NCBI RefSeq assembly: GCF_000949425.1
Contig: NZ_CP010976.1
Coordinates: 1,674,001-1,738,000 of the forward strand
DNA length: 64,000 bases
Origin: Paenibacillus sp. IHBB 10380
Lineage (GTDB): Bacteria > Bacillota > Bacilli > Paenibacillales > Paenibacillaceae
Direction of reading: 5' to 3'
Of this stretch, positions 6,201 to 55,015 are shown piece after piece (position 1 is the first letter of the stretch; every line of letters starts with the position of its first letter). A program made the translations under genes and the position numbers. The notes beneath the pieces are model-generated. The model had not been told where the DNA came from, did not search any database, and saw nothing but the letters and a program-made list of their open reading frames with translations.

Positions 6201-9200
6201 ATCTGGTCGGAGGTGCTCGGTTTGGAGCGCATAGGGGTCCGGGACAACTTCTTTGAGTTGGGAGGAGACTCGATCAAGGCGATTCAAATCAGCGCTCGTT
6301 TGCATAAACAACAGTTGAAGCTGGAGATCGCGAACTTGTTCCTGCATCCGACAATTGAAGACGTGAGTCTGTATGTACGGCAGGTGGAAATGAGCATCGA
6401 TCAAGGTCAAGTGAAGGGGCAGGTAGAGCTCACCCCGATTCAGCGATGGTTTTTCGAACAAAACTTCCAAGCGAAGCATCATTGGAACCAGTCGGTGATG
6501 GTATATAGGCAAGAGGGCTTCAACAGCGAGGCACTGAGGGAGGTTTTGCAGGAACTGGTGGCCCACCATGATGCGCTGCGAATGAGGTATGAGGGTGAAG
6601 GAGAAAGCGTCCTTCAAGTTAACGAAGGGATCGAAGGGAACAGAATCGAGCTAAGCGTAGTAGAGATCGTCGGGGATGAAGAGGAAGTGGCAAGGCGGAT
6701 TGAGGCGGAATCGGAGCTCCTTCAAAGCAGCCTGAACCTAGAGTCGGGACCGCTGATGAGAGCTGGATTATTCAAGACCGGCAAAGGGGACCACTTGCTG
6801 CTGGCGGTCCATCATCTGGTGATCGACGGAGTCTCATGGAGAATCCTGCTGGAAGATTTGGCGATCGGGTATGAACAGAAGCTGGCGAATGAGGAAGTGA
6901 GCTTGCCGGAGAAGACGAACTCGTACCAACAGTGGTCCAAGGAACTGAACGAGTATGCCTACAGCAGGAAGCTGCTAAGAGAGAAGCCGTATTGGAAAGC
7001 GGTGGAAGAGGCGGAGATTGCAAGACTGCCGAAGGACATGGAGGCTGAGGCACAAGGGAATACATGGGGAGAGAGCCGGATCGAAATCGTGGAGTTCACG
7101 GAAGAAGAGACGGAGAAGCTGCTGAGAAACGTGCACCAAGCGTACCATACGGAGATGAATGACATCCTGCTGACAGGACTGACACAGGCCGTGGAAGAGT
7201 GGACGGGAGAAGAACGAGTAGGGCTGACGCTGGAGGGACACGGAAGGGAAGAGGTCATCAAGGGAGTGAACGTGAGCCGGACGGTGGGCTGGTTTACGAG
7301 CATGTACCCGGTGGTGTTGGAAATCAAGGGAAGGGAAGAACTGGGGAATCAAATCAAGCAGGTGAAAGAAACGCTGAGAAGGATACCGAATAAGGGGATC
7401 GGATACGGGATTCTGAAATACGTGACGGAGAAGGAAAAAACCCAGGAGCTGGAATTCAAACAAAGACCGGAGATTAGCTTCAACTACTTGGGGCAGTTTG
7501 ACACGGAGATGGGAAGCCGCGTATTTGAAGGGTCTGGGATGCCGACGGGAGGCGAATTTCATCGAGATTCGGAACGAACACACAGGCTGGATGTAGGCGG
7601 TGCCATTGTGGGAGGCAAGCTGCAGATGAGCATTCAGTATCCGGGAAGAGAGTACCGGGAAGAGACGATCAAGGGATTGCTGGAGAGCTATCGAGACCAC
7701 CTGTGCCGGATTATCGAGCATTGTGTACAAAAAGAGGATGCTGAGAGAACACCTAGCGATTTTAGTACGAAAGCGTTGAATCTGGAGAGTTTGGAAGTAG
7801 TTTTGTCCAAGCTGGAGGAAATACGAGACGGGAACGAGATAGAAGACGTATATACGCTGTCCCCGATGCAAGAAGGAATGCTGTTTCATGCCCTAGCGGA
7901 AAGAGGCAGAAGCGATTATTTTGTCCAATTGAGCTTATCGGTCAAGGGTCGGCTTGAAATAGAAGCTTTGACTACGAGTTTCCAGCGGATGGTTGAGAAA
8001 TATTCGATCCTAAGAACGAACTTTTTGTATGAAAAAATAGATCAGCCTTATCAAGTCGTCTGGAAAACGAGAAAGGTGAATGTGTATTACGAGGACATCA
8101 GGGAGCTTGCAGAGGAAGAAAAGGAAGCCCGTTTGCAAGAGTATGAGAACGGGGAGAAGGAAAGAGGATTCGATCTTAGCAAGGATCTTCTGATGAAGGT
8201 GTCGGTGATCCAGACGGGTGAGGACACGTACAGAGTGATCTGGAGTTACCATCACATCATCATGGATGGCTGGTGCACGGGGATCGTTCTGGGAGATTTG
8301 TTCAAGTATTACGTTCAATTGAAAAGCGGTCAGCGCGTGGAGTTGGAAAAAGCGTATCCGTACAGCGATTACATCCAATGGCTGGGGGAGCAGGATCAAG
8401 AAGAGGCGCTGGAGTACTGGGAGAACTACTTGAGGGGGTACGAGGAACAGGCAAGCGTACCGACGCAGCGGAAAGGTGAAGGAAACGGGGAGTATCGGCA
8501 AGAGGAAGTGATCGTGACTGTAGAGGAGAAGGAGAGCAGTCAATTGAACAGGCTCGCTCAAAAATACCAAGTGACGATCAACACGATGGTCCAGTCGATC
8601 TGGGGGATTTTGCTGCAAAGGTACAACCAAGCGAGAGACGTGGTGTTCGGTTCGGTGGTCTCAGGAAGACCTGCGGAAATTGAAGGCGTGGAGAAAATGG
8701 TGGGGTTATTCGTGAATACGATTCCCATCCGAGTATACGCAGAGCCGACGGAGCGATTTGCAGACCTGGTGCAAGGGATGCAGCACAGAGCGTTAGCCTC
8801 GGAGAAATACGATTACGTATCGTTAGCAGATGTGCAGGCGAAGAGCCAGGTGAAGCAAGGGTTGCTGGATCACATTATGGCATTCCAAAATTTCCCTATA
8901 GGTGAAGAACTGAAGAGTCAAACGGACGGGGAAGGGTTAGGCTTCGAGATAGAGGGAGTCGAAGAATTCGAGCAGACGAACTATGACTTTAACATCACAG
9001 TCATTCCGGGGAAACGGCTGACGTTTAAAATGAATTACAATGCAATGGCGTACGAACAGGAGTTTATCCAGAGAATCGGGCAGCATGTGGAGAGAATTAT
9101 CCAGCAGGTAGTGGAGCGTCCGGAGCTGCGGATCCAAGAGCTTGACATCGTGATGGAAGAGGAACGGGAGCAGGTGTTGGTGTCGTTCAATGAAACGGAG

Positions 9201-12200
9201 GCACCGTACCCGAGGGAGAAGACGATTAGCGAGCTGTTCGAGGAACAGGTGGAGAAAACTCCGGAGCAAGTAGCAGTGGTGTACGAAGGGGAGGAGTGGA
9301 CGTACGAAGAGCTGAATGCAAGGTCGAACCAAGTGGCCCGTGTGCTGCGCAAGCACGGGGTAGGAACCGAGACGATCGTGGGCATCATGGTGGAACGTTC
9401 GCTGGAGATGATGGCAGGAATCCTGGGCATCCTGAAGGCAGGAGGAGCGTATTTGCCGATTGACCCGGACTATCCTTCAGAGCGGATTGCGTACATGCTG
9501 GAGGATAGCGGGACGAAGGTGCTGTTGACGCAGAAGCGGCTGACGGACCGAGTGGTGTTTGACGGAAGCATTGTGGCGTTGGATGAGGCGGGCGTATATG
9601 CAGAGGAAGAGCGCGGGAATATCGCGGGCGAGCACACGGCTGCTAGTTTGGCGTACGTGATTTATACGTCAGGGTCCACCGGGAAGCCGAAAGGGGTACT
9701 GGTAGAGCATCGATCTTTGGTGAATTTGTCACTATGGCACCAGCAACAGTATGCAGTGACAGCGAAGGATCGAAGCACGAAATTCGCAGGATCCGGGTTT
9801 GATGCGTCGGTGTGGGAAATTTTCCCGTATTTGATTAGCGGCTCCACGATCTATATCGTCAGCGAATGGATTCGCAGCGATGTGAAGCAATTACAGCAGT
9901 ATATGGAGAGTAACGGGATTACGATTAGCTTTTTACCGACGTCGATGTGTGAAAAGTTTATGGAAGAAGAAGTCGGCTCCTTACGGTTGTTATTAACCGG
10001 GGGAGATAAGCTGCATCACTATAAGAGGCAGAAGTATGAGATCGTCAATCACTATGGACCAACGGAGAATACGGTAGTAGCCACCAGCTATGTAGTGGAA
10101 GAAGGGGCAAGCAATATCCCGATCGGAAAGCCGCTGCCGAATATGCAAGTGTATGTGCTGGGTGAAGCGAACCAGTTGCAGCCTATCGGAATCGCGGGAG
10201 AGCTGTGCATAGCCGGAGACGGGTTGGCACGAGGATATTTGAACCGTCCAGAGCTGACGAAGGAGAAATTTGTCGAGAACCCGTTTGTCCCTGGAGAGCG
10301 GATGTACCGGACGGGGGATTTGGCCAGATGGTTGCCGGATGGGAACCTGGAGTACTTGGGCCGGATTGATGAGCAGGTGAAGATCCGTGGCTTCCGGATT
10401 GAGCTGGGAGAGGTGCACGAGCAGCTCATGAAGCATGAAGCGGTGGAAGACGCGATCGTCGTAGCCCGGAAGGGAGAAGAAGGCGAAGCGTACTTGTGCG
10501 CGTACGTGGTGACGGAAGAGGAGCTGCCGGTGTCGGCATGGCGCAAGCATATGGGCCAAAGCTTGCCGGAGTATATGATTCCGTCGTACTTCGTGCGAAT
10601 GGAGAAGCTGCCGCTGACGCCAAACGGGAAGGTGGACCGCAAGGCGCTGCCAGCCCCGGAAGGAACGGTACACACGGGCGTGGAGTATGTCGCGCCGCGA
10701 AACGACATGGAGTCGAAGCTGGCGGACATCTGGTCGGAGGTGCTCGGTTTGGAGCGTGTGGGCGTCCGGGACAACTTCTTTGAGTTGGGAGGGCACTCGC
10801 TGAAAGCGATGATGCTGGTCTCGCAGATTCATCAGGAACTGCAGGTGGAGGTGCCGCTGCGCGAAGTGTTCGGGCACGCAACGATCGAAGCGATGGCAGG
10901 CTACTTGCAGGAAGCGGAAAAGACAACGCACACCCCGATAGAGCGTGTGGAAGCGAAAGCGTTTTATCCGGTGTCGCCGGCGCAAAAACGGATGTATGTG
11001 GTTCAGCAGCTGGAAGGGGCAGGAGTCAGCTACAATATGCCGACGGTGCTGAAGCTGGAAGGAAAGCTGGACCGGGGCCGTCTGGGCATGGCCTTGCAAA
11101 CGGTGGTGAACCGGCACGAGGCATTGCGCACGTCCTTTGACATGGCTGACGGGGAACTGGTGCAGCGGGTACTCGCGGAAGTGGAACTGGCTGTGGCATG
11201 CGAAGAAGCGAGCGCTATGGAGATCGAGCATTTGATCCAAACGTTCATCCGTCCGTTTGATCTGAGTCAAGCGCCGTTACTGCGGGCAGGCATTTTACAG
11301 CTAGGGGAAGAGGAGCATGTGCTGGTGGTGGACATGCACCACATCATCTCCGACGGGGTGTCGATCAACCTATTCCTACAGGAGTTCATGCAGACGTATG
11401 AAGGAAGAGAGCTTGGGAAGCGAGGAATCCAGTACAAAGATTATGCGGTATGGCAGCAGGAGCGAATCCGCAAGGGAGACATCGAGAAGCAGGAGCAGTA
11501 CTGGCTGGAATCATTCGCAGGAGAAGTGCCGGTGCTGGAACTGCCAATGGATTATCCGCGTCCGGCTGTGCAGCAGTTTGAAGGTGCCAGCGTAGGCTGC
11601 GAGCTGGGAGAGGAGTACAGCCAGAAGCTGGCGAAGCTGTCGCTTGAGAGAGGAGCGACGCTGTATATGACCCTATTGGCGGCATATACCGTGCTGCTGT
11701 CGAAATATACAGGGCAAGAAGACATCGTGGTGGGAACGCCGATTGCGGGAAGAGGACACGCCGACCTCGGTGAAGTGATGGGGATGTTCGTAAATACGTT
11801 GGCGCTGAGGAATCGCCCGCAAGGGGAGAAAACGTTCGTTTCGTACCTGGAGGACGTGAAAACGCAGGTGCTGCAGGCGTATGAGAACCAGGAGTATCCG
11901 CTGGAGGAGTTGGTGGAGAAGCTGGGTGTACGGAGAGATTTGAGCCGGAATCCGCTGTTTGATACGTTGTTCGCGCTGCAAAACGTAGAGATGAAAGAGT
12001 TCGGTCTGGAAGGACTGAAGGTAAGCCCGTACGGATACGAAGGAAAGATTGCGAAATTTGATGTAAGCCTGCAGGCAGTCGAAGGGGAAGGGAAGCTCTA
12101 CTTCCATGTGGAGTACGGAAGCCGGTTGTTCCGCCCGGAAACGATTGAGAGATGGAGCAGCCACTGGCTGAGGCTGTTAGAGCAGGTGGCGGACCAGCCG

Positions 12201-15200
12201 GAGATCAGGCTGTCGGACATCGAGCTGATGACGGAAGAGGAACGGGAGCAGGTGTTGGTGTCGTTCAATGAAACGGAGACGCCATACCCGAGGGAGAAGA
12301 CGATTAGCGAGCTGTTCGAGGAACAGGTAGCAAAGACACCGAAGCAAGTAGCAGTGGTGTACGAAGGACAGGAGTGGACGTACGAAGAGCTGAATGTCAG
12401 ATCGAACCAAGTGGCGCGTATGCTGCGCAAGCACGGGGTAGGGGCCGAGACGATCGTGGGCATCATGGTGGAACGTTCGCTGGAGATGATGGCCGGGATC
12501 TTGGGCATCCTGAAGGCAGGAGGAGCGTATTTGCCGATTGACCCGGATTATCCGGCAGAGCGGATTGCGTACATGCTGGAGGATAGCGGGACGAAGATGC
12601 TGCTGACTCAGGAGCCTTTGACGGACCGGGTGGCGTTTGACGGAAGCATTGTGGCGTTGGATGAGGCGGGCGTATATGCAGAGGAATATCGCGGGAATAT
12701 CGCGGGCGAGCATACGGCTGCTAGTTTGGCGTACGTGATTTATACGTCCGGGTCCACCGGTAAGCCGAAAGGAACCTTGATATCCCATTTCAATATTGCC
12801 AGGGTCGTAAAAGACACCAATTATATTGAAATTACAAGCGATGATACCTTGTTGCAACTATCCAACTATGTGTTTGATGGATCGACATTTGATATATGGG
12901 GTGCGCTGCTAAATGGTGCAAAACTTTTGCTAATCAACAGAGAGAGCGTATTGGACGCAAGTAAACTTTCAACAATCATTCACAAAGAAAACATAACGGT
13001 TGTCTTTATGACTACGGCTCTATTCAATGCACTTATTGATGTCAACCCGGAATGCCTCAGTAGGGTAAGAAAAGTGTTGTTCGGGGGCGAAAAAGTATCG
13101 GGAAGTCATGTGGAGAAAGCAATCAAATATTTGGGCGAAACTAAAATCATACACGTATATGGTCCTACTGAAAGCACAGTGTTTAGTACTTATTATGCGG
13201 TGAACGAAGTCTCGTCTCGGGCGGACAACATTCCGATCGGTAAGGCTATCAGTAATACGAAGCTGTACGTTATGAATAGTAAAAATCAGCTTCAGCCTAT
13301 TGGAATAGCGGGAGAGCTGTGCATAGCCGGAGACGGGTTGGCGCGAGGGTACTTGAACCGACCGAAATTGACGGAGGAGAAGTTTGTGGAGAACCCGTTT
13401 GTGCCAGGAGAGAAGATGTACCGAACGGGGGACTTGGTAAGATGGCTGCCGGACGGGAACCTGGAGTACTTGGGCCGGATTGATGAGCAGGTGAAGATCC
13501 GTGGCTTCCGGATTGAGCCGGACGAGGTGCGCCAGCAATTAATGAAGCATAAAGCGGTGGAAGACGCGGTCGTTGTGGCCCGGAAGAGAGAAGAAGGCGA
13601 AGCGTACTTGTGCGCGTACGTGGTGACGGAAGAGGAGTTGCCGGTGTCGGCATGGCGCAAGCATGTGGGAGAAAGCTTGCCGGAGTATATGATTCCGTCG
13701 TATTTCGTGCGTGTGGAGCACCTGCCGCTGACGCCAAACGGGAAGGTGGACCGCAAGGCGCTGCCAGCACCAGAAGGGGTGGTACACACAGGCGTGGAAT
13801 ACGTCGCGCCGCGAAACGACGTGGAGTCGAAGCTGGCGGACGTCTGGTCGGAGGTGCTCGGTTTGGAGCGCATCGGGGTCCAGGACAACTTCTTCGAGCT
13901 GGGGGGTCACTCGCTGAAAGCGATGATGCTGGTGTCGCGGATTCACCAGGAGCTGCAGGTGGAGGTGCCGCTGCGCGAAGTGTTCGGGCACGCGACGATC
14001 GAAGCGATGGCGGGCTACTTGCAGGAAGCAGAGAAGAAATCATATACCCCGATAGAGAGGGTAGAAGCGAGAGCGTTTTATCCGGTGTCACCGGCACAAA
14101 AACGGATGTATGTGGTCCAGCAGTTGGAAGGAGCAGGAGTCAGCTACAATATGCCGACGGTGCTGAAGCTGGAAGGAAAGCTGGACCGGGGACGTCTGGG
14201 CGCGGCCTTGCAAACGGTGGTGAACCGGCACGAGGCATTGCGCACGTCCTTTGACATGGCGGACGGGGAACTGGTGCAGCAGGTACAAGAGGAAGTGGAA
14301 CTGGCTGTAGCGTACGAAGAAGCGAGCGCTATGGAGATCGAGCATCGGATCCAAACGTTCATCCGTCCGTTTGATCTGAGTCAAGCACCGTTACTCCGGG
14401 CAGGAATCATACAGCTGGGGAAAGAGGAGCATGTGCTGGTGGTGGACATGCATCACATTATCTCTGATGGGGTGTCGATCAACCTATTCCTGCAGGAGTT
14501 CATGCAGACGTATGAAGGACGAGAGCTTGGGGAGCCCGGAATCCAGTACAAGGATTATGCCGTATGGCTACAGGAGCGGATCCAGAAGGGAGAAATCGAG
14601 AAGCAAGAGCAGTACTGGCTGGGGGCGTTCGCAGGAGAAGTGCCTGTACTGGAGCTACCAACGGATTATCCGCGTCCGGCTGTGCAGCAGTTTGAAGGTG
14701 CCAGCGTAGGCTGCGCGCTAGGGGAGGAGTACAGCCAGAAGCTGGTGAAGCTGTCGCGGGATCGAGGAGCGACGCTGTATATGACCCTACTTGCGGCGTA
14801 TACCGTGCTGCTGTCGAAATATACAGGGCAAGAAGACATCGTGGTGGGAACGCCGATTGCGGGAAGAGGGCACGTCGACCTCGGTGAAGTGATGGGGATG
14901 TTCGTAAATACGTTGGCGCTGAGGAATCGCCCGGAAGGGGAGAAAACGTTCGTATCGTACCTGGAGGACGTGAAAACGCAGGTGCTGCAGGCGTATGAGA
15001 ACCAGGAGTATCCGCTGGAGGAGTTGGTGGAGAAGCTGGGTGTACGGAGAGATTTGAGCCGGAATCCGCTGTTTGATACGTTGTTCGCGTTGCAAAACAT
15101 GGAGATGAAAGAGTTCGGTCTGGAAGGGCTGAAGGTAAGTCCGTATGGGTACGAAGGAAAAATTGCGAAATTTGATGTGAGCGTGCAGGCCGTCGAAGGG

Positions 15201-18575: not shown

Positions 18576-18579
18576 AAAC

Positions 18580-18586
18580 GGAGGTG
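18580..18586 (+). promoter_or_regulatory. Ribosome binding site deciding the start of the second synthetase
   Basis: GGAGGTG lies 6 bases before ATG 18593. It contains the alternative in-frame GTG (18584), which rules that GTG out as the main start. It begins 5 bases after the previous stop, so re-initiation or translational coupling is plausible. Confidence 0.8.
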
Positions 18587-18592
18587 AAGCAT

Positions 18593-21500: not shown

Positions 21501-21735
21501 ACGTCGCACCGCGAAACGACGTAGAGGCAAAGCTGGCGGACATCTGGTCGGAAGTGCTCGGCATGGAGCGCATAGGCGTCTGGGACAACTTCTTTGAGCT
21601 GGGGGGACACTCGCTGAAAGCGATGATGCTGGTGTCGCGGATTCACCAGGAGCTGCAGGTGGAGGTGCCGCTGCGCGAAGTGTTCGGGCACGCGACGATC
21701 GCAGCGATAACGGGTTACTTGCAGGAAGCAGAGAA
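18593..21735 (+). other. Module 6: DCL C - A(X) - PCP
   Basis: DCL C with HHIIMDGWC. The A core is of X type ([20 protein letters not shown]). Motif A8 is RIEPDEV. Carrier Ser at 21611. Confidence 0.78.
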
Positions 21736-29557: not shown

Positions 29558-29602
29558 AAGGTTATGTGCCAAAAAGTGATGATTCTTGATTGAATGGATA
29601 AA

Positions 29603-29848: not shown

Positions 29849-29936
29849 CTAGCATCAGTTGCTACCTAGTTTTATGATTACTTATTCAAGAATACAAAGT
29901 GCTATTTAAATATAGAGCATCCCAAGAAAAATTTAT

Positions 29937-29942
29937 GGAGGT
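29937..29942 (+). promoter_or_regulatory. Ribosome binding site of the third synthetase
   Basis: GGAGGT, 11 bases before ATG 29954, slightly longer than the usual spacing. Confidence 0.7.
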
Positions 29943-29953
29943 AATCTAATACG

Positions 29954-32900: not shown

Positions 32901-33050
32901 ACAACTTCTTTGAGCTAGGAGGACACTCGCTGAAAGCGATGATGCTGGTGTCGCGGATTCACCAGGAGCTGCAGGTGGAGGTGCCGCTGCGCGAAGTGTT
33001 TGGGAACGCGACGATCGAAGCGATGGCGGGCTACCTGCAGGAAGCAGAGA
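29954..33050 (+). other. Module 9: DCL C - A(Leu) - PCP
   Basis: Acceptor-like N-terminus [12 protein letters not shown], then HHIIMDGWC. Leu-type A core (D-A-W-F-L-G-H-V-V). Carrier Ser at 32927. Confidence 0.82.
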
Positions 33051-42000: not shown

Positions 42001-45000
42001 TGATATCGTAACAGAAGAGGAACGGGAGCAGGTATTGGTGTCGTTCAACAAGACGGAGGCACCATACCCGAGGGAGAAGACAATTAGTGAACTGTTCGAG
42101 GAACAGGTGGAGAAAACTCCTGGGCAAGTAGCAGTGGTATACGAAGGGCAGGAGTGGACGTACGAAGAGCTGAATGCCAGATCGAACCAAGTGGCGCGAA
42201 TGCTGCGCAAGAACGGGGTAGGAACCGAGACGATCGTGGGCATCATGGTGGAACGTTCGCTGGAGATGATGGCAGGAATCCTGGGTATCCTGAAGGCAGG
42301 AGGAGCGTATTTGCCGATTGACCCGGACTATCCGGTAGAGCGGATTGCGTACATGCTGGAGGATAGCGGGACGAAGGTGCTGCTGACGCAGAAGCGGCTG
42401 ACGGACCGAGTGGCATTTGAAGGAAGCATCGTGGCGTTGGATGAGGCGGGCGTATATGCAGAGGAAGAGCGCGGGAATATCGCGGGCGAGCATACGGCCG
42501 CTAGTTTGGCGTACGTGATTTATACGTCGGGGTCCACCGGGAAACCGAAAGGGGTACTGGTGGAGCATGCGAGTCTAACCAACATGTTGTCAGCGATGCA
42601 GCAACGGTATCCATTACAAGCAACCGGAGCTTATCTATTAAAGACTGCCTATACGTTTGATGTATCGATCACGGAGTTGTTCGGGTGGATACTAGGGAAC
42701 GGCCAACTGGTAATAGCCAAGCAAGGCGCGGAAAAGGACTGGGCCAAACTGGAAGAGGTGATCGATCGCCATCCAATCACGCACATCAACTTCGTTCCCG
42801 CGATGCTGCATCTGGTGATGAACGACGGTGTAGAACAAGAGAAGGTCAAGAAACTGGAATACGTGTTTGTAGCAGGAGAAGCGCTCCCTAGCGATTTGGC
42901 GAACAAGCTGAACGAGTCATGGCCGGACGTTAAGGTGGAAAATATGTACGGTCCGACGGAAGCGACCATCTATGCAACACAATATGCCCTGGGAAGGAAG
43001 GAAGGAGTCCACGTCCCGATCGGAAAGCCGCTGCCGAATACGCAAGTGTATGTGCTGGGTGGAGCGAACCGGTTGCAGCCTATTGGAATCGCGGGAGAGC
43101 TGTGCATAGCCGGAGACGGGTTGGCACGAGGGTACTTGAACCGACCGGAGCTGACGGAGGAGAAGTTTGTGGAGAACCCGTTTGTGCCGGGAGAGCGGAT
43201 GTACCGAACAGGGGACTTGGTCAGATGGTTGCCGGACGGGAACCTGGAGTACTTGGGCCGGATTGACGAGCAGGTGAAGATCCGTGGCTTCCGGATTGAG
43301 CTGGGAGAGGTACGCGAGCAGCTCGTGAAGCATGAAGCGGTGGAAGACGCGATCGTCGTAGCCCGGAAGGGAGAAGAAGGCGAAGCATACTTGTGCGCGT
43401 ACGTGTTAACGGAAGCGGAGCTGCCAGTGTCGTCCTGGCGCAAGCATATGGGCCAAAGCTTGCCGGAGTATATGATCCCGTCGTACTTCGTGCGTGTGGA
43501 GCACTTGCCACTGACGCCAAACGGGAAGGTGGATCGTAAGGCGCTGCCAGCACCGGAAGGGGCGGTACACACGGGTATGGAGTACGTCGCGCCACGAAAC
43601 GACGTGGAGGCAAAGCTGGCGGACATCTGGTCGGAAGTGCTCGGTCTGGAGCGCATAGGGGTCCGGGACAACTTCTTCGAGCTGGGGGGACACTCGCTGA
43701 AAGCGATGATGCTGGTGTCGCGGATTCACCAGGAGCTGCAGGTGGAGATGCCGCTGCGCGAAGTGTTCGGGAACGCGACGATCGAAGCGATGGCAGGCTA
43801 CTTGCAAGAAGCGGAAAAGACAACGTATACCCCGATAGAGCGTGTGGAAGCGAGAGCGTATTATCCGGTGTCGCCGGCACAAAAACGGGTATATGTGGTC
43901 CAGCAGTTGGAAGGAGCAGGAGTCAGCTACAATATGCCGACGGTGCTGAAGCTGGAAGGAAAGTTGGACCGGGGACGTCTGGGTGAGGCCTTGCAAACGG
44001 TGGTGAACCGGAACGAGGCATTGCGCACGTCCTTTGACATGGCGGACGGGGGACTGGTGCAGCGGGTACACGCGGAAGTAGAACTGGCCGTAGCGTATGA
44101 AGAAGCGAGCGTTGAGGAAATCGAGCGTCTGATCGAAACGTTCATCCGTCCGTTTGATCTGAGTCAAGCGCCGTTACTGCGTGCAGGCATTCTACAGCTA
44201 GGGGAAGAGGAGCATGTGCTGGTGGTGGACATGCATCACATTATCTCCGACGGGGTGTCGATCAACCTATTCCTGCAGGAGTTCATGCAGACGTATGAAG
44301 GAAGAGAGCTTGGAAAGCGAGGAATCCAGTACAAAGATTATGCGGTATGGCAGCAGGAGCGAATCCGCAAGGGAGACATCGAGAAGCAGGAGCAGTACTG
44401 GCTGGAATCATTCGCAGGAGAAGTGCCGGTGCTGGAACTGCCGACGGATTATCCGCGTCCGGCTGTGCAGCAGTTTGAAGGTGCCAGCGTAGGATGCGAG
44501 CTGGGAGAGGAGTACAGCCAGAAGCTGGCGAAGCTGTCGCGGGAGAGAGGAGCGACACTGTATATGACCCTGCTTGCGGCGTATACTGTGCTGCTGTCGA
44601 AATATACAGGGCAAGAAGACATCGTGGTGGGAACGCCGATTGCGGGAAGAGGACACGCCGACCTCGGTGAAATAATGGGGATGTTCGTAAATACGTTGGC
44701 GCTGAGGAACCGCCCGCAAGGGGAGAAAACGTTCGTTTCGTACCTGGAGGATGTGAAAACGCAGGTGCTGCAGGCGTATGAGAACCAGGAGTATCCACTG
44801 GAGGAGTTGGTGGAGAAGCTGGGTGTACGGAGGGACTTGAGCCGGAATCCGCTGTTTGATACGTTGTTTACGCTGCAAAACGTAGAGATGAAGGAGTTCG
44901 GTTTGAAAGGGCTGAAGGTAAGTCCGTACGGTTACGAAGGAAAAATTGCGAAATTTGATGTGAGCGTGCAGGCCGTCGAAGGGGAAGGGAAACTCTACTT

Positions 45001-47284
45001 CCAGATGGAGTACGGAAGCCGGTTGTTCCGCCAAGAAACGATGGAGAGATGGAGCAGCCATTGGTTGAGGTTGTTAGAGCAGGTGGCGGATCAGCCGGAG
45101 ATTAAGCTGTCTGACATTGAGCTGCTAACAGAAGAGGAACGGGAGCAGGTGTTGGTGTCGTTCAACGAAACGGAGGCACTGTACCCAAGGGAGAAGACGA
45201 TTAGCGAGCTGTTCGAGGAGCAGGCGGAGAAGACTCCTGGGCAAGTAGCAGTGGTGTATGAAGGGGAGGAGTGGACGTACGAAGAGCTGAATGCAAGGTC
45301 GAACCAAGTGGCACGCGTGCTGCGTAAGCATGGGGTAGGGACCGAGACGATCGTGGGCATCATGGTGGAACGCTCGCTGGAGATGATGGCCGGGATCTTG
45401 GGCATCCTGAAGGCAGGAGGAGCGTATTTGCCGATTGACCCGGACTATCCGACAGAGCGGATTGCGTACATGCTGGAGGATAGCGGGACGAAGGTGCTGC
45501 TGACCCAGAAGCGGCTGACGGACCGGGTGGCGTTTGAAGGAAGCATCGTGGCGTTGGATGAGGCGGGCGTGTATGCAGAGGAAGAGCGTGGGAATATCGC
45601 GCGCGCGCATACGGCCGCTAGTTTGGCGTACGTGATTTATACGTCGGGGTCCACCGGGAAGCCGAAAGGGGTCATGGTGGAACAGCGCAATGTTGTCCGG
45701 TTACTGTTCAACGACAAAAACTTGTTTGACTTTGGCGATACGGACACCTGGACGTTGTTCCATTCGTTCTGCTTTGATTTTTCCGTGTGGGAAATGTACG
45801 GGGCGTTGTTGTACGGAGGGAAGCTGATCGTGGTACCTCAAAAGACAGTGAAAAATCCACAACAATTCCTTCAATTACTGAAGGATCAACAAGTAACCAT
45901 ATTGAATCAAACGCCAATGTATTTCTATCAGTTGCTGCATGAAGAAGGAAGAGAGGTTGGAGAGAAGCTAGCCGTAAGGAACGTAATTTTCGGAGGAGAG
46001 GCGTTAAGCCCATCCATATTGAAAGAGTGGAAAAGGAAACACCCAGATATACGATTGATTAATATGTATGGAACAACAGAAACGACAGTGCATGTTACCT
46101 ACAAAGAAATCACTGAAGTGGAGATTGCTCAAGGGAAGAGCAACATTGGGAAACCGATACCAACCTTGAGGGCTTATATACTGGATAAGCAGCAGCGGAT
46201 ACAACCTATAGGTATACAAGGGGAGTTGTATGTTGCAGGAGAAGGAGTGGCACGAGGGTATTTGAACCGTCCGGAGCTGACGGAGGAGAAGTTTGTAGAG
46301 AACCCGTTTGTGCATGGAGAACGGATGTACCGGACGGGTGACTTAGCCAGATGGCTGCCGGATGGGAACCTGGAGTACTTGGGTCGGATCGATGAGCAGG
46401 TGAAGATCCGTGGCTTCCGGATTGAGCTGGGAGAGGTGCATGAGCAGCTCATGAAGCATGAAGCGGTGGAAGACGCGGTGGTCGTGGCCCGGAAGGGAGA
46501 AGAAGGCCAATCGTACTTGTGCGCGTACGTGGTGACGGAAGAGGAGCTGCCGGTGTCGGCATGGCGCAAACATATGGGAGAAAGCTTGCCGGAATATATG
46601 ATCCCGTCGTACTTCGTACGTGTGAAGAAGCTGCCGCTGACGCCAAACGGGAAGGTGGACCGCAAGGCGCTGCCAGCCCCGGAAGGGGCGGTACACACGG
46701 GTGTGGAGTACGTCGCGCCACGAAACGACGTGGAGGCGAAGCTGGCGGACATCTGGTCAGAGGTGCTCGGTTTGGAGCGCATAGGAGTCCGGGACAACTT
46801 TTTCGAGCTTGGGGGGCACTCGCTGAAAGCGATGATGCTGGTGTCGCGGATTCACCAGGAGCTGCAGGTGGAGGTGCCGCTGCGCGAAGTGTTCGGGAAC
46901 GGGACGATCGAAGCGATGGCGGGCTACTTGCAGGAAGCAGAGAAGAAATCATATACCGCGATAGAGCGGGTGGAAGCGAGAGCATTTTATCCGGTGTCGC
47001 CGGCACAAAAACGGGTATATGTGGTCCAGCAACTGGAAGGAGCAGGAGTCAGCTACAATATGCCGACGGTGCTGAAGCTGGAAGGAAAGCTGGACCGGGG
47101 CCGTCTGGGCGCGGCCTTGCAAACGGTGGTGAACCGGCACGAGGCCTTGCGTACGTTCTTTGATATGGCGGACGGGGAACTGGTGCAGCGGGTACACGCG
47201 GAAGTGGAACTGGACTGTAGCGTACGAAGAAGCGAGCGCTATGGAGATCGAGCATCGGATCCAAACGCTCATCCGTCCGTTTGA
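29954..47284 (+). CDS. Non-ribosomal peptide synthetase, 5' part of a probable six-module gene
   Basis: Starts at ATG 29954, with GGAGGT at 29937-29942. Intact order: DCL C-A(Leu)-PCP - C-A(Leu)-PCP - C-A(X)-PCP-E - DCL C-A(X)-PCP - C-A(Thr)-PCP - start of an LCL C domain. The frame is lost at 47214, where one extra base follows the codons for AEVEL, and 24 out-of-frame residues lead to TGA at 47282-47284. The downstream frame 47808-51494 continues the same C domain and supplies A(Val)-PCP-E. The two are probably one gene (29954-51494, about 7,180 codons) making Leu-Leu-D-X-X-Thr-D-Val. The N-terminus ([12 protein letters not shown]) is a docking acceptor. A donor-acceptor-like linker inside the protein (40607-40745) marks a fused cassette boundary. 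As read, the protein would lack its last module and could not pass on its chain. Confidence 0.93.
33058..36130 (+). other. Module 10: LCL C - A(Leu) - PCP
   Basis: Leu-type core nearly identical to that of module 9, with the same H at the seventh code position. Carrier Ser at 36005. Confidence 0.82.
36140..40640 (+). other. Module 11: LCL C - A(X) - PCP - E, makes D-X
   Basis: X-type A core. GGDS carrier Ser at 39128. The E domain carries [10 protein letters not shown]. It leads into the docking-like linker at 40607-40745. Confidence 0.78.
40493..41143 (+). repeat. Long direct repeat, copy 2
   Basis: Matches 7635-8285 at an offset of 32858, about three cassette lengths. Confidence 0.75.
40607..40745 (+). 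other. Second docking-like fused linker, copy of 7749-7887
   Basis: Base-for-base the same as 7749-7887 at an offset of 32858. It separates modules 11 and 12 in the same E to DCL C context. Confidence 0.65.
40690..43815 (+). other. Module 12: DCL C - A(X) - PCP
   Basis: The start of the C domain is almost base-identical to that of module 3 (offset 32858). X-type A core. Carrier Ser at 43694. Confidence 0.78.
43825..46940 (+). other. Module 13: LCL C - A(Thr) - PCP
   Basis: Thr signature D-F-W-N-I-G-M-V-H. Carrier Ser at 46820. From the A core to 47213 it is nearly identical to module 15 and its downstream C domain (offset 8066). Confidence 0.85.
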
Positions 47285-47807
47285 TCTGAGTCAAGCACCG
47301 TTACTGCGGGCGGCATCCTACAGCTAGGGGAAGAGGAGCATGTGCTGGTGGTGGACATGCACCATATCATCTCCGACGGGGTGTCGATCAACCTGTTCCT
47401 ACAGGAGTTCATGCAGGCGTATGAAGGACGAGAGTTTGGGGAGCCGGGCATCCAGTACAAGGATTATGCCGGTATGGCAGCAGGAGCGGATCCGGAAGGG
47501 AGAGATCGAGAAGCAGGAGCAGTACTGGCTGGGGGCGTTCGCAGGAGAAGTGCCTGTACTGGAGCTGCCGACGGATTATCCGCGTCCGGTTATGCAGCAG
47601 TTTGAAGGTGCCAGCGTAGGCATGCGCACTAGGGAGAGGAGTACAGCCAGAAGCTGGTAAAGCTGTCGCGGGAGTCGAGGAGCGACGCTGTATATGACCC
47701 TACTTGCGGCGATATACCGTGCTGCTGTCGAAATATACAGGTCAAGAAGACATCGTCGGTGGGAACGCCGATTGCGGGAAGAGGGCACGCCGACCTCGGT
47801 GAAGTGA
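47214..47807 (+). other. Cluster of nine single-base indels interrupting an NRPS condensation domain
   Basis: Compared with the parallel C domain at 55280-55870, there is an extra A at 47214, a missing G near 47312, and extra bases near 47471 (G), 47622 (A), 47632-47635 (G), 47675 (T), 47712 (A), 47758 (G) and 47806 (A). The net change is +7, exactly the frame difference between 29954-47284 and 47808-51494, so the list accounts for the split. All remaining sequence reads as normal C domain, including HHIISDG. Eight insertions to one deletion, few in long homopolymers and none elsewhere in this gene, looks like an unpolished error-prone read patch rather than decay. That is inference. Confidence 0.85.
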
Positions 47808-50800
47808 ATGGGGATGTTCGTAAATACGTTGGCGCTGAGGAACCGCCCGCAAGGGGAGAAAACGTTCGTTTCGTACCTGGAGGACGTGAAAACGCAGGTG
47901 CTGCAGGCATATGAGAACCAGGAATATCCGCTGGAGGAGTTGGTGGAGAAGCTGGGTGTACGGAGAGATTTGAGCCGGAATCCACTGTTTGATACGTTGT
48001 TCGCGTTGCAAAACATGGAGATGAAAGAGTTCGGTCTGGAAGGGCTGAAGGTAAGTCCGTATGGGTACGAAGGAAAAATTGCGAAATTTGATGTGAGCGT
48101 GCAGGCCGTCGAAGGGGAAGGGAAGCTCTACTTCCATGTGGAATACGGAAGCCGGTTGTTCCGCCCGGAAACGATGGAGAGATGGAGCAGCCATTGGTTG
48201 AGGTTGTTAGAGCAGGTGGCGGATCAGCCGGAGATTAAGCTGTCGGACATCGAGCTGATGACGGAAGAGGAACGGGAGCAGGTGCTGGTGTCGTTCAACG
48301 AGACGGAAGCGCCGTACCCGAGGGAGAAGACGATCAGCGAGCTGTTCGAGGAACAGGTAGCAAAGACACCAAAGCAAGTGGCGGTAGTGTACGAAGGGGA
48401 GGAGTGGACGTACGAAGAGCTGAATGCAAGGTCGAACCAAGTGGCCCGTGTGCTGCGCAAGCACGGGGTAGGAAACGAGACGATCGTGGGCATCATGGTG
48501 GAACGTTCGCTGGAGATGATGGCAGGAATCCTGGGCATCCTGAAGGCAGGAGGAGCGTATTTGCCGATTGACCCGGACTATCCGGCAGAGCGGATTGCGT
48601 ACATGCTGGAGGATAGCGGGACGAAGGTGCTGTTGACGCAGAAGCGGCTGACGGACCGAGTGGTGTTTGACGGAAGCATTGTGGCGCTGGATGAGGCGGG
48701 CGTATATGCAGAGGAAGAGCGCGGGAATATCGCGGGCGAGCACACGGCTGCTAGTTTGGCGTACGTGATTTATACGTCAGGGTCCACCGGGAAGCCGAAA
48801 GGGGTATTGGTGGAGCAGCGGAACGTCGTCCGTCTGGTGAAAAACACGAATTACGTGGAGTTTGGCGAGGGAGATCGTATCCTCCAAACGGGAGCGCTGG
48901 TGTTCGATGCGTCTACGTTTGAAATTTGGGGTGCGCTGCTCAACGGTTTGCGTCTGTACTTGAGCGCTGAGCACCGTATTTTGGACCCTCAGCATCTGGG
49001 TCAGAGTATTGAGCAATATGGAATCACGACGATGTGGCTGACCGCGTCGTTGTTTAATCAAGTGGTGCAAGAGCGGATCGAAACGTTTAGGGGCCTGAAG
49101 ACGTTGATCGTAGGAGGAGAAGCATTATCTGTCGAGCATGTGAACCGGGTAAGAGAAGCGCACGGGGAACTGAAGATCGTGAACGGATATGGACCGACAG
49201 AAAATACGACCTTCTCGGCTTCCTATGTGATCGATGGGAAGCAAGGGGGAACGATTCCGATCGGGAAAGCGATTAACCACTCTAAGGTCTATGTATTGGA
49301 TGGAGCGAACCGGTTGCAGCCAATCGGAATCGCGGGAGAGCTGTGCGTGGCCGGAGACGGGTTGGCACGAGGATACTTGAACCGTCCGGAGCTGACGGAG
49401 GAGAAGTTTGTGGAGAACCCGTTTGTGCCTGGAGAGCGGATGTACCGGACGGGTGACTTAGCCAGATGGCTGCCGGACGGGAACCTGGAGTACTTGGGGC
49501 GGATCGACGAGCAGGTGAAGATCCGTGGCTTCCGAATTGAGCCGGACGAGGTGCGCCAGCAGCTCATGAAGCATGAAGCAGTGGAAGACGCGGTCGTCGT
49601 GTCCCGGAAGGGAGAAGAGGGCGAAGCGTACTTGTGCGCGTACGTGGTGACGGAAGAGGAGCTGCCGGTATCGGCATGGCGCAAACATATGGGAGAAAGT
49701 TTGCCGGAGTATATGATCCCGTCGTACTTCGTGCGACTGGAGAAGCTGCCGCTGACGCCAAACGGGAAGGTGGACCGCAAGGCGCTGCCAGCACCGGAAG
49801 GGGCGGTACACACAGGCGTGGAGTACGTCGCGCCGCGAAACGACATGGAGGCGAAGCTGGCGAACGTCTGGTCGGAGGTGCTCGGTTTAGAGCACATAGG
49901 GGTCCGGGACAACTTCTTTGAGTTGGGAGGAGACTCGATCAAGGCGATTCAAATCAGCGCTCGTTTGCATAAACAACAGTTGAAGCTGGAGATCGCGAAC
50001 TTGTTCCTGCATCCGACAATTGAAGACGTGAGTCTGTATGTACGGCAGGTGGAAATGAGCATCGATCAAGGTCAAGTGAAGGGGCAGGTAGAGCTCACCC
50101 CGATTCAGCGATGGTTTTTCGAACAAGACTTCCAAGCGAAGCATCATTGGAACCAGTCGGTGATGGTATATAGGCAAGAGGGCTTCAACAGCGAGGCACT
50201 GAGGGAGGTCTTGCAGGAACTGGTGGCCCACCATGATGCGCTGCGAATGAGGTATGAGGGCGAAGGAGACAGCATCCTTCAAGTTAACGAAGGGATCGAA
50301 GGGAACGGAATCGAGCTAAGCGTAGTAGAGATCGTTGGGGATGAAGAAGAAGTGGCAAGGCGGATCGAGTCGGAGTCGGAGTGTCTGCAAAGCAGGCTGA
50401 ACCTGCAGTCGGGCCCGCTGATGAGAGCCGGCTTATTCAAGACTAGTGAGGGAGACCACTTGCTGCTGGCGGTCCATCATCTGGTGATCGACGGAGTCTC
50501 ATGGAGAATTCTGCTGGAAGATTTGGCGCTCGGGTATGAACAGCGTCTGGCGAATGAGGAAGTGAGTTTGCCGGAGAAAACGAACTCGTACCAACAGTGG
50601 TCCAAGGAACTGAACGAGTATGCCAACAGCAGAAAGCTGCTGAGGGAGAAGCCATATTGGAAAGCGGTGGAAGAGGCGGAAATTGCAAGACTGCCGAAGG
50701 ACATGGAGGCTAAGGCACAAGGGAATACATGGGGAGAGAGCCGGATCGAAATCGTGGAGTTCACGGAAGAAGAGACGGAGAAGCTGCTGAGAAACGTGCA

Positions 50801-51494
50801 CCAAGCGTACCATACGGAGATGAATGACATCCTGCTGACAGGACTGACACAGGCCGTGGAAGAGTGGACGGGAGAAGAACGAGTAGGGCTGACGCTGGAG
50901 GGACACGGAAGGGAAGAGGTCATCAAGGGAGTGAACGTGAACCGGACGGTGGGCTGGTTTACGAGCATGTACCCGGTGGTGTTGGAAATCAAGGGAAGGG
51001 AAGAACTGGGGAATCAAATCAAGCAGGTGAAAGAAACGCTGAGAAGGATACCGAATAAGGGGATCGGATACGGGATTCTGAAATACGTGACGGAGAAGGA
51101 AAAAACCCAGGAGCTGGAATTCAAACAAAGACCGGAGATTAGCTTCAACTACTTGGGGCAGTTTGATGCTGAGATGGAGAGCGGCGTATTGGAAGGCTCC
51201 GGGATGCCGATGGGAAGCGCGTTTCATCGAGATTCGGAACGAGCACATAAGCTGGATGTAGGTGGAGCCATTATGGGAGGCAAGCTGCAGATGAGCATCC
51301 AGTATCCGGGAAGCGAGTACCGGGAAGAGACGATCAAGGGATTGCTGGAGAGCTACCGAGACCACCTGCGACGGATTATCGAGCATTGTGTACAAAAAGA
51401 GGATACTGAGAGAACACCTAGCGATTTTAGTGCGAAAGCATTGAGTCTGGGGAGTCTGGAACTCATTTATTCTATGGTTGAGGAAATGGAATAG
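47808..51494 (+). CDS. Non-ribosomal peptide synthetase, 3' part: end of C domain, A(Val), PCP, E
   Basis: The frame opens at an ATG that is an internal Met of the conserved C-domain segment [11 protein letters not shown]. It has no ribosome binding site, and the protein starts in mid-domain, so this is not an independent gene. It continues the gene that starts at 29954, after nine indels. Contents: the C-terminal ~60% of an LCL C domain, an A domain with signature D-A-F-W-I-G-G-T-F (the classical valine code), a PCP of GGDS type and a full E domain ([21 protein letters not shown]). It ends in a docking tail ([20 protein letters not shown]). The module would add D-Val. The A domain uses RIEPDEV where most others here have RIELGEV. 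Confidence 0.92.
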   Translation: MGMFVNTLALRNRPQGEKTFVSYLEDVKTQVLQAYENQEYPLEELVEKLGVRRDLSRNPLFDTLFALQNMEMKEFGLEGLKVSPYGYEGKIAKFDVSVQAVEGEGKLYFHVEYGSRLFRPETMERWSSHWLRLLEQVADQPEIKLSDIELMTEEEREQVLVSFNETEAPYPREKTISELFEEQVAKTPKQVAVVYEGEEWTYEELNARSNQVARVLRKHGVGNETIVGIMVERSLEMMAGILGILKAGGAYLPIDPDYPAERIAYMLEDSGTKVLLTQKRLTDRVVFDGSIVALDEAGVYAEEERGNIAGEHTAASLAYVIYTSGSTGKPKGVLVEQRNVVRLVKNTNYVEFGEGDRILQTGALVFDASTFEIWGALLNGLRLYLSAEHRILDPQHLGQSIEQYGITTMWLTASLFNQVVQERIETFRGLKTLIVGGEALSVEHVNRVREAHGELKIVNGYGPTENTTFSASYVIDGKQGGTIPIGKAINHSKVYVLDGANRLQPIGIAGELCVAGDGLARGYLNRPELTEEKFVENPFVPGERMYRTGDLARWLPDGNLEYLGRIDEQVKIRGFRIEPDEVRQQLMKHEAVEDAVVVSRKGEEGEAYLCAYVVTEEELPVSAWRKHMGESLPEYMIPSYFVRLEKLPLTPNGKVDRKALPAPEGAVHTGVEYVAPRNDMEAKLANVWSEVLGLEHIGVRDNFFELGGDSIKAIQISARLHKQQLKLEIANLFLHPTIEDVSLYVRQVEMSIDQGQVKGQVELTPIQRWFFEQDFQAKHHWNQSVMVYRQEGFNSEALREVLQELVAHHDALRMRYEGEGDSILQVNEGIEGNGIELSVVEIVGDEEEVARRIESESECLQSRLNLQSGPLMRAGLFKTSEGDHLLLAVHHLVIDGVSWRILLEDLALGYEQRLANEEVSLPEKTNSYQQWSKELNEYANSRKLLREKPYWKAVEEAEIARLPKDMEAKAQGNTWGESRIEIVEFTEEETEKLLRNVHQAYHTEMNDILLTGLTQAVEEWTGEERVGLTLEGHGREEVIKGVNVNRTVGWFTSMYPVVLEIKGREELGNQIKQVKETLRRIPNKGIGYGILKYVTEKEKTQELEFKQRPEISFNYLGQFDAEMESGVLEGSGMPMGSAFHRDSERAHKLDVGGAIMGGKLQMSIQYPGSEYREETIKGLLESYRDHLRRIIEHCVQKEDTERTPSDFSAKALSLGSLELIYSMVEEME

Positions 51495-54800: not shown

Positions 54801-55015
54801 GGCGAAGCTGGCGGACATCTGGTCAGAGGTGCTCGGTTTGGAGCGCATAGGAGTCCGGGACAACTTTTTCGAGCTTGGGGGGCACTCGCTGAAAGCGATG
54901 ATGCTGGTGTCGCGGATTCACCAGGAGCTGCAGGTGGAGGTGCCGCTGCGCGAAGTGTTCGGGAACGGGACGATCGAAGCGATGGCGGGCTACTTGCAGG
55001 AAGCAGAGAAGAAAT
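51856..55015 (+). other. Module 15: DCL C - A(Thr) - PCP
   Basis: HHIIMDGWC, Thr signature D-F-W-N-I-G-M-V-H and YGTTE. Carrier Ser at 54886. Confidence 0.85.

Follow-up and report, generated by a model that had tools for sequence, protein, structure and literature searches.

The window analysed here, a stretch of 64,000 nucleotides from Paenibacillus sp. IHBB 10380, lies in the middle of a longer system, a real cassette-built synthetase predicted from its domains to give L-L-D triads and probably a 25-module NRPS making a long linear lipopeptide, with a starter, an L-L-D frame, reductase release and LoaP control. In the genome the cluster extends over about 96.5 kb (roughly 97,000 bases) at 1.648-1.745 Mb and comprises an acyl starter with a ketoreductase (KR), 25 elongation modules, a terminal reductase, an exporter and a LoaP antiterminator. 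NRPS gene 2 (10779 aa when entire, genome positions 1660236-1692575) reaches into the window from upstream, where two further L-L-D cassettes both begin outside it, and gene 7 (3531 aa when entire, 1734299-1744894) runs out of it, with a terminal reductase at its end beyond the window. The features of the window are collected in Table 1.

Table 1. Synthetase genes, cassettes, E domains and repeats in the window (positions counted from its first letter; substrates are predictions).
Feature	Position	Strand	Remarks
NRPS gene 2, 3' part	3..18575	+	module 6 carrier followed by modules 7-11 (numbered along the full product)
NRPS gene 3	18584..29557	+	3657 aa; one L-L-D cassette, residues 12-14
NRPS gene 4	29954..47284	+	5776 aa as read; stops within a C domain
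NRPS ORF 5	47808..51494	+	1228 aa as read; remainder of the C domain and, after it, the module 20 A-T-E
NRPS gene 6	51856..59523	+	2555 aa; L-D cassette of two modules, residues 21-22
NRPS gene 7, 5' part	60299..64000	+	residues 23-25, no E
Complete L-L-D cassette	7842..18527	+	residues 9-11 (Leu, Ile, D-X predicted)
Complete L-L-D cassette	18620..29503	+	residues 12-14 (X, X, D-Thr predicted)
Complete L-L-D cassette	29975..40636	+	residues 15-17 (Leu, Leu, D-X predicted)
L-L-D cassette with broken third C domain	40700..51443	+	residues 18-20 (X, Thr, D-Val predicted)
Frame-broken part of module 20 C domain	47200..47810	+	nine one-base length differences from siblings in 0.6 kb
E domain, after residue 8	6414..7778	+	
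E domain, after residue 11	17172..18527	+	TIGR01720 166 bits, cut-off 74
E domain, after residue 14	28139..29503	+	
E domain, after residue 17	39272..40636	+	
E domain, after residue 20	50079..51443	+	
E domain, after residue 22	58108..59472	+	two modules past the preceding E
651-bp exact repeat, copy 1	7635..8285	+	spans the E/DCL junction
651-bp exact repeat, copy 2	40493..41143	+	
42-bp in-frame tandem repeat	21989..22161	+	4.1 copies, within module 13 C domain

The cassettes follow the order C-A-T, C-A-T, C-A-T-E, with a D-accepting C (DCL) domain after each E domain; in the window the DCL domains start at 7842, 18620, 29975, 40700, 51883 and 60326, and gene 4 holds the cassette of residues 15-17 plus modules 18-19. 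In the 25-module product E domains come after residues 2, 5, 8, 11, 14, 17, 20 and 22, and the genome-wide frame consists of an L-D head, six consecutive L-L-D cassettes (one of them with a frame-broken C domain), a further L-D and an L-L-L tail without E. An earlier sequence-only reading had placed E domains after residues 2, 5, 8, 11 and 14 of its own numbering, as the domain order confirmed, and had put a D residue at every third position; the latter holds through residue 14, but a sixth E domain follows residue 16 of that numbering, and a strict L-L-D period over the whole product had to be given up, since the period fails at residue 22 (of 25) and no E occurs in the tail. The four cassettes that it drew from 7840 to 51494 were all found (7842-51494), although the last is the one with the broken C domain, and its cassette length of about 10.7-11 kb compares with DCL-to-DCL spacings of 10778, 11355, 10725 and 11183 bp for cassettes 1-4. 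Its rule for the carriers was borne out throughout the window, GGDS being present in all six carriers before an E domain and GGHS in the 12 others. The predicted substrates do not repeat from cassette to cassette; the stereochemical frame alone does.

To examine the C and E subtypes, 85 domains of four clusters, labelled by position only, were placed in one tree, from which one row of our own cluster that contained stops and all C hits shorter than 1000 bases were left out. All 19 C domains following an E formed a single clade (support 100/98), which includes the six such domains of the window, in agreement with the earlier C-type rule, and our own domains were placed as expected (E 8/8, DCL 8/8, readable LCL 14/14). 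Two of the 20 E domains named by the position rule (G240_40952 and G633_39800) fell among the LCL domains; they are array-final C domains, with no A domain found afterwards, that the rule had mislabelled. One window domain of each type was also compared with the PDB, where we take the C domains of BacC, TycB1 and SrfA-C to be DCL and that of TycC to be LCL. The DCL domain matched BacC, TycB1 and SrfA-C with 423, 415 and 384 bits and TycC with 105, the LCL domain matched TycC with 457 bits and BacC, TycB1 and SrfA-C with 132, 87 and 89, and the E domain reached 431-461 bits with the E domains of GrsA, TycA, TycB and BacC. The subtype assignments hold both in the tree and, for one domain per type, against solved structures, and they support the reading that the repeated DCL/LCL/LCL-E cassettes should give L-L-D triads. 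The C domain of module 2, which outside the window pairs with its counterpart in the relative G531 at 100/100 and adjoins the DCL clade, matched McyA best in the PDB (187 bits), then the D-accepting BacC (136) and AmbE (126). It is probably of the modifying type, dehydrating Thr to dehydrobutyrine (Dhb); a dual C/E role is possible as well, given BacC as second-best match and the position beside the DCL clade.

As read from the alignments, the A domains form a two-layer mosaic, in which exchangeable A cores are set into a nearly uniform scaffold. Cores of the same predicted substrate are 97.3% identical (n = 40 pairs) and those of different substrates 43.5% (n = 213), the flanks being 88% and 83% identical even between different substrates, and the drop in identity extends from A3 to just past A5. 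The code DVTNFA.IY (type X), with Ala or Gly as candidate substrates, occurs in seven of the 25 A domains; the closest PDB match of an X-type domain was LgrA module 2, scored as a single domain (535 bits), with GrsA and TycA at 447, and a Leu-type domain matched TycA with 511 bits and LgrA module 1 alone with 485. One A domain carries the code DVEQIGCVD, without an assigned substrate, and its residue may be charged; presumably there is no Glu or Asp code among the 25 modules, this one being without assignment. Another code was corrected by full alignment to DAWFLGHV from DAWSLGHV, read by eye. A narrow search of the open-licence literature did not find the codes DVTNFAMI, DVTNFAII and DVEQIGCV, nor the superseded DAWSLGHV; another of the six strings did turn up there. 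Exchange of A cores that retains the C-A linker and the A-sub/T interface is described for NRPS evolution, and the recombination treated there runs across clusters and species (PMC8097286; PMC7486941), whereas here many products of such swaps would stand side by side within one assembly line, with flanks 83-88% identical on average.

The scaffold itself appears to have been homogenised. A 651-bp exact repeat lies at the offset of 32858 bp at which the earlier reading had noticed near-identical stretches, and many further exact repeats measure 200-570 bp; exact repeats of 200-650 bp are not due to chance. A self-comparison of genes 2-7, counting shared 20-mer pairs in 100-bp offset bins without a shuffled control, gave 10.7 kb as top offset (6556 pairs), as expected for cassettes, but 3.1, 18.8 and 8.0 kb came next (3949, 3907 and 3841 pairs), the first of these corresponding to one module, so that the likeness of the repeats tracks domain type as much as cassettes. 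In the tree, 13 of 14 LCL, 7 of 8 DCL and 7 of 8 E domains fell into own-cluster clades, and the median DNA identity of LCL domains is 92.5% within our cluster (12 of 15 domains compared), against 57.3% in G531 and 51.9% in both G240 and G633. GC3 rises as near-identical copies become more numerous (0.42, 0.54, 0.61, 0.68 and 0.71 in 240-bp windows of genes 2-7; Spearman 0.71, 341 windows), as it would if GC-biased gene conversion had homogenised the repeats and lifted their G+C. At fourfold sites, however, G alone increases and C does not: the share of G is about 0.2 in those E and DCL domains that are unique, and 0.5-0.65 in the C and E domains that have been homogenised. A strand-symmetric bias ought to lift both bases. 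Moreover, GC4 is higher in Val cores (three copies) than in Thr cores (four alike copies), the correlation is weak when best-paralogue identity replaces copy number (Spearman 0.17), and a founder effect from G-rich modules accounts equally well for the pattern. Strand-symmetric GC-biased conversion as the cause of the high repeat G+C is thus weakened, since G alone rises, and we give it little credence. The frame would have arisen by module duplication and concerted evolution, with residue identity set by A cores swapped into the nearly uniform scaffold; on such an origin, chirality and sequence can vary independently, and their separate encoding would be an unusually clean case.

The interruption of the open frame at 47.2-47.8 kb, which falls in cassette 4 within its third C domain (about 46.98-48.28 kb), would leave the assembly line dead after residue 19 if it were real, and the whole cluster might then be a decaying pseudogene array whose repeats are relics without a product. 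We regard this as very unlikely: the break consists of a burst of one-base length differences and shows an ordinary load of private substitutions (13, no excess, as against 1-19 in 12 of the 14 compared siblings), which resembles a local consensus error, elsewhere in the cluster the C, A and carrier matches are all without internal stop, and every one of the 32 listed C and E domains keeps the HHxxxDG motif. To judge from its siblings, the frame break is probably a sequence or assembly error. The same burst hints at a weak consensus, and exact repeats of up to 651 bp are difficult for short reads, so near-identical cassettes might have been collapsed or multiplied and their number be wrong. 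Yet the cassettes can be told apart because the order of the A cores along the line is non-periodic, the genome is assembled into 2 contigs with 100% completeness, and G531 holds a comparable, shorter array with diverged copies, which makes a wrong cassette number improbable.

Beyond the frame, the loading module of gene 1 is an AMP ligase-KR-T, whose ligase matches fatty acyl ligase models below their curated cut-offs and whose specificity code has the Asp235 position occupied by G instead of Asp. A scan of genome contigs with the starter protein found no relative. An alignment-based scan kept 78 loci, most of them AMP ligase-KR-T starters of cyanobacteria; it shows that such starters are widespread but did not reach the nearest relatives. 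Module 1 has a Thr code and is followed by the putative modifying-type C domain. At the other end, gene 7 carries a terminal reductase (NAD_binding_4, 156 bits, cut-off 20) and no thioesterase among its 9 Pfam families, and the 10 Pfam families found in gene 1 include no formyltransferase. The LoaP protein (NF033641, 200 bits against a cut-off of 125) is encoded with the very long operon that it adjoins, and a UCCG-loop hairpin is predicted about 0.2 kb upstream of gene 1 (z -2.8). LoaP controls the polyketide operons dfn and mln of Bacillus velezensis, in which a UNCG-loop hairpin in the leader and terminators in leader and genes are described (PMC12691694); the gene position is alike here and the predicted hairpin may correspond, but no terminator-like site was seen in the operon leader.

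We propose that the fatty-acyl-type ligase, KR and carrier would load an acyl, probably hydroxyacyl, starter, that module 1 would add Thr, probably dehydrated to Dhb by module 2, and that modules 1-22 would elongate the chain under the frame L-D, six times L-L-D, L-D. Each E domain would flip the residue attached to its GGDS carrier, which would then be taken up by the D-accepting C domain that follows; modules 23-25 would add L residues, and the reductase would release the chain as the aldehyde or alcohol of Asn. LoaP, acting on the leader hairpin, probably permits read-through of the operon, and an ABC transporter would export the product, predicted to be linear, largely hydrophobic, fatty-acid-capped and about 25 residues long, at an estimated mass of roughly 2.5 kDa, with an N-terminal Dhb and a reduced C-terminal Asn.

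The surfactin synthetase has two L-L-D units, each made of three modules of which the last carries E. It begins with a starter C domain, without a loading module, and ends with a thioesterase that cyclises the product to a lactone. Its frame unit is shared with our cluster, which could be a merely enlarged surfactin-type synthetase, with three-module L-L-D genes multiplied and nothing else new. Surfactin from Bacillus (srfA) is described as a heptapeptide of chiral sequence LLDLLDL (PMC5662584), which contradicts the earlier statement that no Bacillales peptide has L-L-D periodicity. The close similarity of the window DCL to SrfA-C and the size of about 3600 aa of gene 3 and, in G531, of four out of six NRPS genes point the same way. 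Mere enlargement is nevertheless unlikely, because the present line has six L-L-D units with head and tail, starts from an AMP ligase-KR-T and not, as in surfactin, from a starter C domain alone, terminates in a reductase rather than a thioesterase, and has 25 modules with no known Glu or Asp code and one code without assignment. Membership of the surfactin family was rejected on the reductase without thioesterase and on the loading module; the cluster appears rather to extend the L-L-D pattern of surfactin to a longer line.

Linear gramicidin, an uncharged hydrophobic peptide with L-D alternation and a formylated start, is made by a reductase-terminated synthetase (lgrA-D). Our cluster shares the reductase and the affinity of the X-type A domain to LgrA module 2, but the missing formyltransferase in gene 1 and the different E order exclude it from that family. 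Syringopeptin is a hydrophobic, Dhb-rich lipopeptide of 22 or 25 residues, made with dual C/E domains and released as a lactone. Its synthetase (Pseudomonas), unlike our cluster, has no E-domain period of three. Among synthetases whose modules were recently duplicated and evolved in concert, it has been cited as an extreme case (PMC4256081). The bogorol, brevibacillin and brevilaterin lipopeptides of Brevibacillus are described as linear, with a terminal reductase and C-terminal valinol, Dhb as residue 1 in bogorol and brevibacillin, and, for bogorol, a line of 13 modules in which E follows 3, 7 and 11 (PMC9581180). The terminal reductase is common to both, but these lipopeptides have no period of three and contain several Orn and Lys, whereas our predictions are mostly neutral; bogorol-type membership was rejected on the 25 modules and the E positions given above.

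A shorter relative of the cluster, with 18 modules, occurs within the same bacterial family; G531 shares the head, the L-L-D cassettes and the reductase end. Narrow searches of the open-licence literature did not find an extended L-L-D backbone as a described product, and L-L-D combined with lipopeptide terms gave no match. Since the same core serves L and D positions, as the Leu core does in modules 8 (D) and 9 (L) and the X core in modules 4 and 11, the lineage could rewrite the sequence without touching stereochemistry and lengthen the product by L-L-D triads. Tentatively, and with less than even confidence, the line may combine a fixed period-three chirality frame with a few freely exchangeable A cores, and its product would be a new class of mostly neutral N-acyl peptides of about 25 residues with a C-terminal alcohol and an L-L-D repeat, folding in a membrane into a channel or pore that differs from gramicidin's L-D helix.

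If this reading is right, the system would be a natural test bed for an old question of synthetase engineering, that of free exchange of A cores while C domains gate nothing but stereochemistry. Evolution would appear to have swapped A cores many times in one line, with closely readable junctions, and a family of long linear lipopeptides with members of 18 and 25 residues would be predicted.

The genome has two contigs; the window is taken from the one of 5.77 Mb, at bases 1674001-1738000. Pfam condensation (C), adenylation (A) and carrier (T) domains were located by search across the whole genome, and the NRPS cluster was found to span about 96.5 kb, with one starter and 25 A domains for elongation. 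As read, it comprises seven open frames of 3925, 10779, 3657, 5776, 1228, 2555 and 3531 aa (genes 1-7), plus a 106-aa frame inside a broken stretch of module 20. Gene 1 encodes an AMP ligase, which matched fatty acyl ligase models at scores below their curated cut-offs, a KR, a carrier, a C-A-T and a C-A-T-E module; its last C-like domain matched TIGR01720 (81.5 bits, cut-off 74). Gene 2 carries three L-L-D cassettes (three modules ending in E), gene 3 one, and genes 4 and 5 together two, followed by a two-module L-D cassette in gene 6 and by gene 7, with three modules without E and NAD_binding_4 as terminal reductase. Therefore, E domains follow residues 2, 5, 8, 11, 14, 17, 20 and 22. The sequence-only reading had described four successive DCL/LCL/LCL-E cassettes (DCL and LCL, C domains accepting D and L residues), an observation that is sound. 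The E domains that it placed after residues 2, 5, 8, 11 and 14 are present, but its numbering starts at what is residue 7 here, and it missed a further E in the window, after its residue 16. The mechanism that it proposed for D residues at every third place is right; the strictness is not, given the L-D cassette of gene 6 and the lack of E in gene 7. Elsewhere in the genome there are at least five further multi-module NRPS regions, and C-domain matches in the whole genome number 87, fragments included.

Positions of the features described in the text
Feature	Window	Genome
NRPS cluster		1648337-1744894
Four successive cassettes	7840-51494	
Module-20 C domain	about 46.98-48.28 kb	
Break in module 20	47200-47810	
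42-bp tandem repeats, first C domain	21989-22161	
42-bp tandem repeats, second C domain		about 1663650-1663790
S-layer-homology frames and transposase remnant		1646158-1648337
Predicted leader hairpin		1648110-1648154
ABC transporter pair		1745151-1747177
LoaP gene		1747326-1747928
Further NRPS regions		300-329k, 1441-1467k, 2198-2220k, 2564-2580k, 2686-2719k

The HHxxxDGxSW motif is present in all eight E domains of the cluster and HHxxxDG in 32 of 32 listed C and E domains, a list outside which the broken module-20 domain lies. The carrier typing proposed earlier was confirmed in the window, with GGDS in six of six carriers before E and GGHS in the remaining 12; both carriers before E outside the window are also GGDS. 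The module 1 carrier is GGDS although no E follows; next to it comes the atypical C domain of module 2. The last carrier, ahead of the reductase, is GGNS. Compared with solved structures, whose D- or L-accepting nature is assumed here, one window DCL scored 423 with BacC E-C, 415 with TycB1 and 384 with SrfA-C, against just 105 for the TycC LCL (2jgp). The scores of one window LCL were 457 for 2jgp but 132, 87 and 89 for BacC, TycB1 and SrfA-C, respectively; one window E domain scored 431-461 with the E domains of GrsA, TycB, TycA and BacC. A tree was built of 85 domains, taken from four clusters and labelled solely by their position. All 19 after-E domains grouped together (100/98). Of the 20 domains labelled E by their position, 18 formed a clade of their own (100/100), and the other two are mislabelled array ends. 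The subtypes called earlier were borne out by this phylogeny: 8/8 E, 8/8 DCL and 14/14 readable LCL domains of the cluster were placed as expected.

The module-20 C domain, 96% identical to its closest sibling, contains nine one-base length differences inside 0.6 kb, which split the gene. Its 13 private substitutions are inside the range (1-19) of 12 of its 14 siblings, the outliers having 59 and 453. The break is probably a local consensus error, and genes 4 and 5 would then probably be one gene with six modules.

The module-2 C domains of this cluster and of the one in G531, a genome of the same family, branch next to the DCL clade as a pair of their own (100/100). The best match of the former was McyA (187 bits), followed by BacC (136) and AmbE (126); McyA and AmbE are presumably C domains tied to dehydrated residues. 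These matches, together with the Thr code of module 1, suggest dehydrobutyrine (Dhb) at residue 1, and the domain may have a dual C/E role. All A domains were aligned to read their specificity codes, and substrates were predicted by comparison with known codes.

Specificity codes of the elongation A domains and their predicted substrates
Code	Modules	Prediction
DFWNIGMVH	1, 14, 19, 21, 24	Thr
DVTNFA[MI]IY	2, 4, 11, 12, 13, 17, 18	X
DGFFLGVVF	3, 10	Ile
DAFWIGGTF	5, 7, 20	Val
DVEQIGCVD	6	?
DAWFLGHVV	8, 9, 15, 16, 22, 23	Leu-like
DLTKIGEIG	25	Asn

X would be either Ala or Gly. The nearest PDB A domain is LgrA module 2 (535 bits), which we take to be Gly-specific. Gly is disfavoured, since five of the six clusters or cluster starts compared (this one, G531, G642, G633 and G690) have X, with small changes, at position 2 ahead of E, where G240 has a Leu code, and E domains are idle on Gly. 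The predicted chain, in which ? marks the unassigned code of module 6, is acyl-Dhb-D-X-Ile-X-D-Val-?-Val-D-Leu-Leu-Ile-D-X-X-X-D-Thr-Leu-Leu-D-X-X-Thr-D-Val-Thr-D-Leu-Leu-Thr-Asn-al or -ol. The substrate order has no period of three; what repeats is the frame, not the substrates.

Downstream of the cluster there are an ABC transporter pair and a gene for the antiterminator LoaP (NF033641, 200 bits, cut-off 125), and a LoaP-like frame, judged by eye, is directly ahead of the G531 cluster. According to an excerpt of PMC12691694, two long operons have a leader with a UNCG hairpin to which LoaP binds. For the gene 1 leader a hairpin is predicted whose loop, UCCG, is a tetraloop of this type. Against a reading of LoaP antitermination, neither the leader nor the gaps ahead of genes 4 and 6 yielded a terminator-like site; the gap before gene 7 has one on the minus strand only. 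Just upstream of gene 1 are cut S-layer-homology frames and, by eye, an apparent transposase remnant.

No close homologue of the starter protein was found among 100 genus, 398 class and 394 family genomes (overlapping sets, own genome included; E no higher than 1e-150 in the class and family scans). Identity of the best-scoring match from other genomes was 43% (genus), 40% (class) and 43% (family); partial matches covering less than half of the query reached 46-47%, and the best protein matches 46% (P0002; P0006 of Bacillus sp. DX3.1). The gene 1 layout with modifying C domain and E occurs in four of the 120 proteins listed (P0001, P0006, P0018 and P0021, own included). G531 carries a complete relative with 18 modules in six genes, in the order starter, module 1, module 2-E, L-L-L-D, three L-L-D, L-L-L and reductase, and the same cluster start lies at a contig end in G642. 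The starter type is in common with G240, G633 and G690 (first modules only in G690), but there LCL replaces the modifying C domain, and the frames of G240 and G633 differ from L-L-D. Taken together, the two arrays mark the L-L-D frame as characteristic of a small group, strict in neither member. The sequence-only reading knew of no Bacillales peptide of this periodicity; surfactin is a heptapeptide of chiral sequence LLDLLDL (PMC5662584, in part), and that negative is therefore wrong. The mechanism of the earlier interpretation is right, its uniqueness and strictness wrong. The locus is a long form of an already known type; new are its length of six cassettes, the chemistry by which the chain is loaded and released, and a predicted 25-mer that is mostly neutral. 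With bogorol, brevibacillin and brevilaterin, as partly covered by PMC9581180, the cluster has reductive release in common, and with the first two the predicted Dhb, but their frame is unlike this one.

G+C content is 52.7% across genes 2-7 vs. 40.2% in gene 1 and upstream, and the third-position G+C of gene 1 is host-like (0.38). GC3 rises with the number of near-identical copies from 0.42 to 0.71 (Spearman 0.71; 240-bp windows, genome 1660236-1744894), a rise to which, on the coding strand, G alone contributes; the simplest reading would be a founder effect. Two otherwise near-identical C domains carry in-frame 42-bp tandem repeats before the HHxxxDG motif (translated unit of 14 residues, approximate in sequence).

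DNA identity of the A domains was measured in three parts for modules 3-25 (23 of 25), leaving out modules 1 and 2 of the distinct gene 1. The core was 97.3% identical in same-substrate pairs (40) vs. 43.5% in different-substrate pairs (213), the N-terminal part 94.7% vs. 87.8% and the C-terminal part 94.5% vs. 82.8%. In a 15-codon profile of 21 domains, from which modules 6 and 25 were also left out because their cores are unique, different-substrate pairs were, beyond the first residues of the A domain, 90-96% identical up to motif A3. Right after A3 the identity dropped to 35-53%, a level that held until about 25 residues beyond A5; it was 65-72% across the following 30 residues and then 86-96% as far as the carrier. 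At the profile ends (C-domain tail and carrier) identity was 63-77% in same- and different-substrate pairs alike, since C and carrier types differ there. Judging by the codes, the same cores are used at both L and D places. The median DNA identity among LCL domains was 92.5% in this cluster (12 of 15 compared) vs. 57.3% in G531 and 51.9% in both G240 and G633. Concerted evolution (PMC4256081, in part) and A-core swapping (PMC8097286 and PMC7486941, in part) are already known in NRPS, and the locus shows both in unusually pure form. Its interest lies in a chirality frame that is separate from the substrate cores.
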